Assembly: GCF_000384135.1 (NCBI RefSeq)
Contig: NZ_KB913028.1
Coordinates: 1,453,351-1,517,350, forward strand
Direction of reading: 5' to 3'
DNA: 64,000 bases
Source: Succinispira mobilis DSM 6222
Lineage (GTDB): Bacteria; Bacillota; Negativicutes; Acidaminococcales; Succinispiraceae
Shown here: positions 4,381 to 19,226 of the stretch, piece by piece
How positions within the stretch are numbered: the stretch's first letter is position 1
How the letters are laid out: each line of letters begins with the position of its first letter
Translations under genes and position numbers: made by a program
Notes under the pieces: model-generated
Database searches by the model: none
What the model saw: the letters and a program-made list of their open reading frames with translations, nothing else
Told to the model about the DNA's origin: nothing

Positions 4381-4409
4381 TTGACAATACATGATAATTT
4401 TGATAAAAT
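4381..4409 (+). promoter_or_regulatory. Promoter of the cobalamin-riboswitch transcript
   Basis: Perfect -35 TTGACA (4381-4386), 17-base spacer, -10 TAAAAT (4404-4409). Transcription would start near 4416, just before the riboswitch. Confidence 0.75.
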
Positions 4410-4431
4410 AAAAAAATATTTTATATAATAA

Positions 4432-4558
4432 AGTTTAACAGGTGCCTCTTGGCCTAAAAGAAAAGTTCGGTGTATTCCGACGCGGTCCCGCCACTGTAAA
4501 AGATTGTTTATTACATACTCTCACAGACAATCTCAAGCCAGTAACTGCCTGTTTAAAC
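4432..4558 (+). promoter_or_regulatory. Cobalamin (B12) riboswitch
   Basis: The family core is readable in order: ACAGGTGCC near 4438, GAAAAGTTCGGTG, the hallmark GACGCGGTCCCGCCACTGTAA at 4479-4499, then AAGCCAG and ACTGCCTG near 4550. The closing stem pairs GTTTAACAGG (about 4433) with CCTGTTTAAAC (4548). A strong promoter lies upstream and a terminator at 4655-4689 before the gene at 4726. It should switch transcription off when cobalamin is abundant, as known for this class. Confidence 0.92.
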
Positions 4559-4654
4559 AATCACCGCTATTACCTACGAAAGATGGGGATGGAGATTGCG
4601 AAATATGATTATTAAGTTTTTAGCCTTAATAAATTGTGCTTTTCGACTAAATTC

Positions 4655-4689
4655 AGGACACTCTTTCTAATGAAGGGTGCCCTTTTTTT
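4655..4689 (+). terminator. Riboswitch expression-platform terminator
   Basis: Stem AGGACACTCT (4655-4664) with AGGGTGCCCT (4674-4683) followed by seven T residues, between the B12 aptamer and the start codon at 4726. Confidence 0.8.
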
Positions 4690-4725
4690 GTTTTAACTAT
4701 ATTAAATGTAAAAAAAGGAGTTCGT

Positions 4726-5265
4726 ATGTTAATAAAAGATACACCAATAATTATTCGCACAGCCAAAATTTCCGAAATAGAAACGGTTAAAAATTTTCTC
4801 CTACAACAATGTAAACTGCTTTATAATGGTGAGATAAGTCCTAATCAATACCAAGATTTAGAACAATCTCAGGCAAAATATTTTCTCCCGGAACGCCACA
4901 CTTTAATAGGAGCTTTTTTAACAACCGGTCAGCTAGTCGGAACGATTGCTGTCTCAGTTTATAATGATCGAATATCCTGTATCAAGGGTAGATATGCACC
5001 TCATACTGCTGCTGAAATTGGACGTTGTTATATCAGCCCCGAACTTAGGCGTTCGGGAATTGGCTCTCAACTATTTAATTCCGCACTAGATTTCGCTTTA
5101 TCCGCTAATTACAAATTTCTCTATTTGCACACACATAAGTTTTTACCGGGCGGCTTTAATTTTTGGTTAAAAAACGGTTTTAAAATAACTGTAGATGAAG
5201 AAGATATCCATCAAACAGTGCATATGGAGCTTGATTTAGCAGCTTTTATTGGTGACAAAATATGA
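4726..5265 (+). CDS. GNAT family N-acetyltransferase under B12 riboswitch
   Basis: 179 aa. The acetyl-CoA site is visible at AEIGRCYISPELRRSGIGSQ (R/QxxGxG/A loop about residues 105-113), and a C-terminal FNFWLKNGF matches GNAT motif B. The substrate is unknown. The ATG at 4726 follows AAAAAAGGAG. Its stop overlaps the start of the next gene (ATGA), so the two are translationally coupled. Both lie behind a cobalamin riboswitch, which implies a role in corrinoid uptake, salvage or modification; this link is inference from context. Confidence 0.8.
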   Translation: MLIKDTPIIIRTAKISEIETVKNFLLQQCKLLYNGEISPNQYQDLEQSQAKYFLPERHTLIGAFLTTGQLVGTIAVSVYNDRISCIKGRYAPHTAAEIGRCYISPELRRSGIGSQLFNSALDFALSANYKFLYLHTHKFLPGGFNFWLKNGFKITVDEEDIHQTVHMELDLAAFIGDKI

Positions 5266-6224
5266 ATAGCGATTTTATCTTTCTAGCCTGTACAAAAACT
5301 TTTATAATTTGGAAAGCAGCTTTACCTGCCATGTTGTTTGGTTGTTGGTGTGGTGTAGTTTTACGGCGTGGTAAAATTTTTATTTTTTTTAGCAAATTAA
5401 CTAGACCTTTAACATGGTTGGGAAAAATTCCTAAAGAACTAGGTCCTTTTTTTATCCTTTGTCTTTTAAATCGCTATGCTGCAAATGCGCTTTTGGCTGA
5501 TTGTGCTAAAACTAATAAGCTTAGCACCAACACTATTACAGCAGTATATCTTATGGGTTCACTGCCTACCGGAATATATTTTACAGCTTTTTATTTTACG
5601 CCAATATTAATAAATTCTTTAGGGATTGAACTCGGTAGCATTTTCATTGTTATCCATATACTCTTAAGTCTAATCGTTACTTGTACTGGTATTTTTTGGC
5701 AACGTCTAATCAATCAAAATTGGAATAACTTCAGTTTTCAAAGCAATGTATCACCCCAAAACAACATCTCCAAAGCTGATACATTTTTTCAAGATCTCAA
5801 TAGCGCTTGGCTACAATTTCGCTCTATTGCAGTAATTTTCATGCCTGTTACTTTCTTCTTTGCTCTGCTACTATCAACAACTTGGTTAGAACAGTTAGCC
5901 CCAACTTTAGATCAAATCTTACAAAGTTTTTCCCTATCTACTGCTGGTGTTATGGTTATTATTGCTGGCTTACCTACTTTAATTGCTGCTATTGGTTTAG
6001 CTGGTAGCTTATTTGCACAAGGACTTCTTTCTGCACCTGAAGTAATCTTCACACTTCTCTTAGCTGCTTTTGGGCATAACGTATATGATTCATGTTCTAG
6101 AGTCTGGCCAAGTAATGTTGCCATTTTCGGACTAAAACTAGGTACATCACTTACTTTAGTCGGAGCGAATTTATATTTGGGCACTGTCGCAATAGCTATT
6201 TTTATCACTTATAATTTCCTTTAA
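5262..6224 (+). CDS. Gate-type (nucleoside recognition-like) membrane protein, B12-regulated
   Basis: 320 aa and very hydrophobic, with roughly eight to nine membrane segments in two halves separated by a hydrophilic stretch at about residues 150-175. The pattern of glycines and Asn/Pro breaks (LCLLNRYAANALLADC, VYLMGSLPTGIYF, FGHNVYDSCSRVWPSN) is like Gate/nucleoside-recognition and spore-maturation-like permeases. The start overlaps the stop of the acetyltransferase gene. Location behind the cobalamin riboswitch makes it a candidate transporter for a corrinoid or a precursor; no direct evidence of substrate. Confidence 0.65.
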   Translation: MNSDFIFLACTKTFIIWKAALPAMLFGCWCGVVLRRGKIFIFFSKLTRPLTWLGKIPKELGPFFILCLLNRYAANALLADCAKTNKLSTNTITAVYLMGSLPTGIYFTAFYFTPILINSLGIELGSIFIVIHILLSLIVTCTGIFWQRLINQNWNNFSFQSNVSPQNNISKADTFFQDLNSAWLQFRSIAVIFMPVTFFFALLLSTTWLEQLAPTLDQILQSFSLSTAGVMVIIAGLPTLIAAIGLAGSLFAQGLLSAPEVIFTLLLAAFGHNVYDSCSRVWPSNVAIFGLKLGTSLTLVGANLYLGTVAIAIFITYNFL

Positions 6225-6254: not shown

Positions 6255-6300
6255 AATAGCTCTGAAAGTTAGTAATAATACTAAAACTTCAGAGCTATTT
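6255..6300. terminator. Bidirectional terminator
   Basis: Inverted repeat AATAGCTCTGAA / TTCAGAGCTATT with T-rich flanks, lying between two convergent genes (5262 on plus, 6339 on minus). Confidence 0.75.
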
Positions 6301-6338
6301 TTATTGTTAAATATTATTTTTCTAATTTAGACTTTAGT

Positions 6339-18200: not shown

Positions 18201-19088
18201 TCATTTTTCTTTTTCATATGGCTCTGGATGTATCGTTACTTCACAGGGAGCAAAAATTTGCTTAAGTTCATATTCCACTTCATCACAAATAAAATGTGCT
18301 TGTTGCAATTTTAACTCTCCATCTAGAAAAATATACAAGTCAATTAACCTTTTACTTCCAGAACGTCTTGAATGAATATGCCGATACCCTCTAATCAAAG
18401 GGTTTTTATCTAAAAGACTTTGTATTATCAGTCGCTCTTCTTCTGGCAGCGCTACATCTATTAACTCATACACATTTTTCTTCGTCATACTATAACCCGC
18501 TTTAAAAATTATAATAGCAACTAACATAGCAATTATAGGATCTAGCCAATATAATCCTGTTATTTTTATTGCAACCAAGCCTAACAAAACACCCACGCTC
18601 GTCCAAATATCGGCCTGCAAATGCAAAGCATCCGCTTCAAGCGCATGTGATTGTGTTGCTTTCGCTACTTTTAATAAGTTTTTCGAAACAAAATAGTTTA
18701 TCACAATAGAAATTAACATTACTACAATACCATATTCTAAAAATTGAGGAACTTCGTGCGCCGAAAACTTCTGTACTGCCTCATATATTATCCATATTGC
18801 GGCAAATATAATTAACAATGCCTCTACTGCACCCGATAAATTTTCAATTTTTCCATGCCCATAAGTATGTTTTTTATCAGGTTTTTTATCTGAATTTGCA
18901 ACCGCTAAATAAGCAATACAAGCCGCCAATAAATCTACTGCCGAATGTGCGGCTTCTGAGACAATACTTACTGCCCCAGTAAAAACTCCTATCCCTAATT
19001 TTAAAAGCACTAAGATAAAATTAGAAATAACAGAAACTTTAGCAGCGCCTGTTTTACTACCAAAAAATTTTTCTATCAACTGATTCAT
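18201..19088 (-). CDS. Cation diffusion facilitator, probable Co/Ni exporter
   Basis: 295 aa from the ATG at 19088, chosen because GGGGAGG precedes it and the family start follows; a longer frame to 19172 runs into the riboswitch. Metal-site segments typical of CDF are present: SEAAHSAVDLLAA in TM2 and SHALEADALHLQADIWTSVGV in TM5, then a cytoplasmic ferredoxin-like C-terminal domain (HIHSRRSGSKRLIDLYIFLDG). It exports divalent metal by proton exchange. The NiCo-type riboswitch upstream points to cobalt or nickel as the inducer. Confidence 0.9.
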   Translation of the reverse strand: MNQLIEKFFGSKTGAAKVSVISNFILVLLKLGIGVFTGAVSIVSEAAHSAVDLLAACIAYLAVANSDKKPDKKHTYGHGKIENLSGAVEALLIIFAAIWIIYEAVQKFSAHEVPQFLEYGIVVMLISIVINYFVSKNLLKVAKATQSHALEADALHLQADIWTSVGVLLGLVAIKITGLYWLDPIIAMLVAIIIFKAGYSMTKKNVYELIDVALPEEERLIIQSLLDKNPLIRGYRHIHSRRSGSKRLIDLYIFLDGELKLQQAHFICDEVEYELKQIFAPCEVTIHPEPYEKEK

Positions 19089-19111
19089 ACTTCCTCCCCT
19101 GCTACTTGAAC

Positions 19112-19146
19112 AATAAAAATAGCCTATGGAACAAAAACATTGTCCC
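19112..19146 (-). terminator. Expression-platform hairpin of the NiCo riboswitch
   Basis: On the minus strand GGGACA can pair with TGTTCC, followed by a T-rich stretch (TATTTTTATT). The TGTTCC arm is shared with aptamer stem P1, so the two structures exclude each other. Confidence 0.65.
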
Positions 19147-19226
19147 ACAAGCTTAAATAATCTTGCTGCCATTTCGGCCCAGCTGTGTTAGCGCAGTAAT
19201 ATGCTAAACGCCTGCTTATTTGTACC
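19128..19226 (-). promoter_or_regulatory. NiCo riboswitch (czcD-type motif)
   Basis: Read on the minus strand, the leader shows AAGCAGGC, a GTTTAGC/GCTAAC hairpin, CAGCTGGGCCGAAATGGCAG, another hairpin, then TGTGGGACA. The order and spacing match the known Ni/Co-sensing four-way junction RNA, whose conserved segments are GAGCAGGC, CAGCCGGGC, GAAA, CGGCA and GUGGGACA. P1 forms between GGTACAAA (19219-19226) and TTTGTTCC (19128-19135). It directly precedes the CDF gene, the usual partner. Metal binding should stabilise P1 and block the terminator. Confidence 0.85.

Follow-up and report, generated by a model that had tools for sequence, protein, structure and literature searches.

A two-gene unit of Succinispira mobilis DSM 6222, encoding a GNAT acetyltransferase and a polytopic membrane protein of the Gate family, lies behind a cobalamin riboswitch and probably represents a detached accessory of a B12-repressed, Nik/Opp-type uptake system for cobalt or a cobalt chelate, in which the GNAT would acetylate a ligand and the Gate protein would move it; we hold this reading with moderate confidence. 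How anaerobes gather cobalt for B12 under scarcity is only partly understood. The conserved set described below, a Nik-type ABC importer with a GNAT and a Gate or MATE protein, is B12-controlled mainly within a single branch of the GNAT tree; it names genes for two unexplained parts of that process and opens a cobalt chelate cycle to testing. The case also illustrates the use of a riboswitch regulon in assigning orphan genes. Features of the unit within the window (the whole stretch of 64,000 nucleotides that was analysed) are collected in the table.

Table. The GNAT–Gate unit, its leader and its upstream neighbour, in window coordinates.
Feature	Positions	Strand	Basis
Promoter-like site, TTGACA-17-TAAAAT with extended -10 TG	4381-4409	+	11/12 matches
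Cobalamin (AdoCbl) riboswitch aptamer, RF00174	4423-4566	+	covariance model, 44.1 bits
Intrinsic terminator (expression platform)	4655-4689	+	hairpin 4655-4683 and T run
GNAT acetyltransferase gene, 179 aa	4726-5265	+	PF00583
Gate-family (PF07670-related) polytopic membrane protein gene, 320 aa	5262-6224	+	homology
Terminator-like hairpin and T run closing the two-gene unit	about 6258-6302	+	read from sequence
trpB-like gene, divergent, upstream neighbour of the unit			by eye

The leader contains a match to the full cobalamin aptamer model (positions 1-189; gathering threshold 31.5 bits, E 8.1e-8), within which CGGUG of L5 (4468-4472) is able to pair with CACCG (4562-4566), a pairing that would be compatible with the kissing contact of the cobalamin riboswitch class. 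Downstream, the terminator hairpin has a predicted energy of -11.5 kcal/mol and is followed by seven T. An earlier reading of the sequence by a model (the first-pass annotation) had described the B12 aptamer, the terminator, and an ATGA overlap between the two genes, and all three are confirmed, the aptamer by covariance search; at the level of sequence, the aptamer match and the terminator also support the riboswitch control of the pair proposed there. The promoter proposed in the same annotation is present as a site, which is plausible only, because the leader region held 10 promoter-like matches against 9.2 expected in shuffles. Regulation of the pair by a B12 riboswitch is ordinary in kind. 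Cobalamin riboswitches of this type usually repress, and we infer OFF-switch behavior here; the mechanism is put conditionally since MFE folding of the leader gave no clear ligand-free antiterminator, the sole candidate being a 6-bp pairing of GAAAGA (4578-4583) with UCUUUC (4662-4667). The whole leader folds no better than shuffles (z -0.93).

The assignment of the first gene as an acetyltransferase holds: its product scores 50.4 bits against PF00583 (cut-off 20.7, E 3e-13) and belongs to a subfamily with the near-invariant motifs AExxRCY and LHTHxFLPGGFxFW. The membrane protein, whose reading frame starts inside the GNAT stop codon, had been called Gate-type; this is valid by homology at the family level, since 9 of the 14 family members in the alignment match PF07670 (Gate; best E 4e-13), but the window protein itself lacks the domain match and alone gave nothing over cut-off against Pfam or NCBIfam. 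Gate-domain membrane proteins include YjiG/YjiH, SpmA/SpmB, and the membrane part of FeoB. An AlphaFold2 model of the protein, built from 14 sequences (mean pLDDT 80, pTM 0.77), suggests that it is probably an elevator-type carrier, and no more is claimed for it; a search of solved structures with a profile made from the Gate alignment gave no match.

A scan of the whole genome (2.09 Mb) placed RF00174 at 12 sites including that of the window, 11 of them over cut-off. Genes behind the other sites, assigned mostly by eye and with Pfam, encode methylmalonyl-CoA mutase, a CbiK-like chelatase, TonB receptors together with a cobN-like gene, CbiZ, a CobT-type DBI_PRT, and ExbB/ExbD/TonB with an ECF set. 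At one further locus (L019), a riboswitch that matches the AdoCbl model RF01482 as well precedes a Nik/Opp-type ABC importer consisting of two permeases, a solute-binding protein (SBP) and two ATPases; both permeases are above the cut-off of nickel permease models, and the top-scoring models for the SBP are nickel ones (Opp5A_nikA, E 1e-96, at a score under the curated cut-off). The pair's own operon has no Nik/Opp ABC genes, so the pair is filed as an accessory of a B12-regulated Nik-type system and not as such a system itself. A gene run for de novo corrinoid synthesis includes cbiD and implies a demand for cobalt; a CbiMQO set with no RF00174 nearby provides another cobalt route, which counts against a role of the pair in cobalt uptake. 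Nickel may be the metal instead, a reading kept in view of a partial match of NiFe hydrogenase type in the genome; urease gave no match there.

Several other loci bear on this regulon or on metal handling more broadly. In the window, a NiCo riboswitch (RF02683, 19138-19228, - strand, 38.0 vs 37.0 bits) precedes a cation diffusion facilitator (CDF) gene (18201-19172, - strand) that lies about 13 kb from the B12-controlled pair and probably serves cobalt/nickel export. Elsewhere in the genome, RF00174 occurs upstream of genes for a dynamin-like GTPase and a beta-helix protein, which are not known cobalamin genes (L017, 12903-13055, - strand, 76 bits), and ahead of a gene whose 180-aa product begins like a signal peptide and matches nothing in Pfam (L020, 2232-2379, + strand, 33.6 bits). 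Cobalamin riboswitches also stand upstream of genes judged by eye to be likely methylmalonyl-CoA mutases, in this genome (L013, 12102-12278, - strand) and likewise, for likely B12-dependent mutases, at L134, L137, L139, and L141; a B12-dependent mutase would be expected to be wanted when B12 is present, so these riboswitches might conceivably be ON switches or sensors of cobamide quality.

Relatives of both proteins were sought in sampled genomes, with mechanical gene calls at the loci. An alignment scan of genome contigs found 14 relatives of the membrane protein (a single-sequence scan gave none), at 50-54% identity in Sporomusa and one other genome of the class, G283, and at about 31% in Desulfotomaculia-like genomes; the Gate gene is mostly situated within or next to an operon that encodes an SBP_bac_5-type importer, methyltransferases, and DUF4198. 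By profile search the GNAT occurs in 28 of 300 class genomes. Leaving aside the window and the divergent f135 group, 25 class loci were examined, and at 21 of these the GNAT shares one uninterrupted same-strand run with at least one Nik/Opp ABC gene. The remaining loci are L125, a fragment with the arrangement of L124, and L131, L143, and L144, where a MATE gene adjoins the GNAT gene. The SBPs and permeases find their best NCBIfam matches in nickel or nickel/cobalt models, with CntA model matches among the SBPs, and family neighbors include Nik/Opp-type metal importers, metal-sensing (CsoR-type) repressors, metal exporters (CDF), and DUF4198. GNAT relatives from Paenibacillus (37-40% identity, same LHTH motif), found in a phylum-wide search, have no ABC genes nearby, which counts against the cobalt-uptake reading. 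Among the Gate loci, the gene of S. ovata DSM 2662 (L085, 10001-10962) seemingly carries a frame break that splits it close to the 5' end, an RF00174-led ABC operon ends in a fragmentary copy (L093, 10004-10457), and a protein of about 140-147 aa that by eye resembles an EamA half-transporter adjoins Gate within the operon at L167 (8862-9305, - strand) and L091 (10957-11376, + strand); EamA proteins elsewhere are zincophore exporters.

The arrangement of the relatives ties the pair to the importer. G283, whose GNAT (62% identity) and Gate protein (53%) are the nearest to those of the window, carries on one strand RF00174 (L168, 2965-3144, 111 bits), a porin, an SBP, two permeases, two ATPases, the GNAT, the Gate protein, a MATE protein, and a metal-sensitive repressor (PF02583). 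At five loci (L135, L137, L139, L140, and L141) the order is RF00174, two permeases, SBP, two ATPases, and GNAT, which L132 extends with a porin and a MATE gene; the ABC proteins of these six loci are 55-64% identical to those of L019 and orthologous to them. Sporomusa sp. KB1 (L067/L080) has RF00174 ahead of Gate and then RF00174 ahead of a porin and an ABC set that is again the ortholog of L019 (55-63%), and at L131 RF00174 heads a MATE–GNAT run. Because ABC genes orthologous to those of L019 are joined with GNAT elsewhere, the system of the window genome appears to be split: gene order shows the importer at L019 and the accessory pair in the window as separate transcription units, both led by a B12 riboswitch of their own.

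B12 control is concentrated in one part of the GNAT family. A maximum-likelihood tree placed the window GNAT in a clade of 14 rows (support 96/99), with the G283 protein as its sister (100/100). In 11 of the 14 rows RF00174 is at the operon head, counting G283, which was unlabelled in the tree run; L138 and the short contigs L142 and L143 are the exceptions. Among the 19 rows that lie outside the clade, only the distant L145/L146 pair has RF00174 at the head in the fetched DNA. Six RF00174-led rows come from one genus, so the loci are phylogenetically dependent and the clustering reflects shared descent in part. Operons with the L019-type ABC carry the switch and those with an L069/NikA-type SBP are mostly without it (L126-L130, L133, L138), a nickel/cobalt split by SBP type that is not strict, since the G283 SBP under RF00174 is a NikA equivalog (612.9 bits vs a cut-off of 393). 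The pattern agrees with a single chemistry put to use for nickel or for cobalt depending on the operon, and agrees poorly with a corrinoid-specific role.

These distributions also qualify the first-pass annotation, whose proposed check turned on whether the pair recurs behind or apart from B12 riboswitches. Recurrence without one was seen in part: GNAT and Gate return in nickel/peptide ABC operons with no RF00174 in the fetched DNA (L063, L066, L068, and L070-L073) or with no RF00174 leading the operon (L090 and L091). Where a relative is accompanied by RF00174, the riboswitch in most cases leads a Nik-type ABC operon, an arrangement that points toward cobalt supply. The general idea of a transporter plus a modifying enzyme is supported.

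On the favored reading, of an accessory to cobalt uptake, transcription would pass the terminator when AdoCbl is scarce, so that GNAT and Gate protein are made, and would stop when AdoCbl is plentiful; as the L019 importer and the pair are each behind a cobalamin riboswitch, the two would rise together. Through the importer, cobalt would most likely enter as a complex with a small organic ligand; Nik/Opp5-type binding proteins carry metal–ligand complexes, e.g. Ni-histidine. The GNAT probably acetylates a small chelator, a step that would either free the metal or be the last in making the ligand. The membrane protein, in whose place other operons have a MATE exporter, probably moves the chelator across the membrane, most likely outward, as MATE would in sister operons. 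What we infer in this scheme is that the metal is cobalt and not nickel, that a ligand is involved, and what chemistry each protein performs and in which direction it acts. A complete cobalt metallophore cycle under a B12 riboswitch, in which the Nik-type ABC imports cobalt with its ligand, the GNAT acetylates the ligand, and Gate or MATE returns it to the outside, is a tentative extension and rather unlikely as a whole.

The annotation had suggested a corrinoid or precursor as the cargo; extended in view of the predicted fold, this idea would have the Gate protein import a corrinoid, cobinamide, or alpha-ribazole that the GNAT modifies. Control of the pair by B12 agrees with this, as do cobT-type genes behind RF00174 in the same genome and the CNT-like predicted fold, which would suit a nucleoside such as alpha-ribazole: the model matched a bovine concentrative nucleoside transporter (CNT) with a VIA Z of 14.2 over 278 residues, about a value that unrelated helical proteins can reach. 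Corrinoid cargo is nevertheless not favored, and we regard it as improbable: the genes around the family encode Nik-type metal importers, metal-sensing repressors, and exporters and do not belong to btu, cob, or cbl, the switch is mostly missing from operons of the nickel type, and the BtuF-like set that comes next in G283 has a separate RF00174 of its own. The Gate protein might instead itself be a Co2+/Ni2+ permease, like the Gate-containing membrane part of FeoB, with the GNAT acting on a protein or a periplasmic ligand, as membership of the Gate family and operons with DUF4198, CDF, and CsoR-type metal genes could suggest; that a complete ABC importer is already present in the same operon of relatives, that MATE proteins recur beside the GNAT, and that the model's best structural matches, CNT and divalent-anion elevator carriers, handle organic substrates (in Foldseek the best only E 0.09, a TRAP transporter first and CNT chains among the next) make this, too, quite improbable. 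Detoxification, in which the GNAT would acetylate an antibiotic or toxic metabolite entering through the derepressed ABC importer and Gate or MATE would expel it, draws on the resistance enzymes among GNAT families and the recurrent MATE genes, but NCBIfam gave only weak matches to such enzymes, none at cut-off, and the tight linkage of GNAT to Nik-type ABC and RF00174 makes it very unlikely.

Compared with known systems, the unit that we favor as an accessory of cobalt uptake stands closest in regulation to the NikABCDE systems of Clostridium tetani and Desulfitobacterium hafniense, B12-riboswitch-led members that have been set apart from nickel-specific ones as predicted cobalt transporters (PMC2667541). 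The common element is a Nik-type ABC under a B12 riboswitch with predicted cobalt supply for B12; the part of that study drawn on here describes no GNAT, Gate, or MATE partner (PMC2667541), and the window pair differs in lying alone behind its own riboswitch, apart from the ABC genes. Opine metallophore systems of the Cnt/staphylopine type likewise combine a dedicated ABC importer with related SBPs, matched by the CntA model, an exporter, and GNATs, and opine zincophore clusters contain extra methyltransferases and GNATs whose role is unassigned (PMC7438024); the exporter is Gate or MATE here and MFS or EamA there, and control here is by B12. Of the CntL/CntM synthesis genes that mark such clusters, the search covered opine dehydrogenase (PF10100), which gave no match in the genome, yet none in the control genomes either, and the likeness would be a parallel in layout rather than membership. 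Gate proteins and concentrative nucleoside transporters are comparable through the homologous Gate signature in the family of the membrane protein and through its predicted fold, which may be CNT-like; the protein itself differs in falling below Pfam detection and in a family operon context of metal uptake. The open-access literature searched contained no description of a GNAT/Gate association. B12-regulated NikABCDE is already known, and what these genomes appear to add to the theme of B12-controlled cobalt uptake is a pair of GNAT and Gate genes as candidates for handling the chelate.
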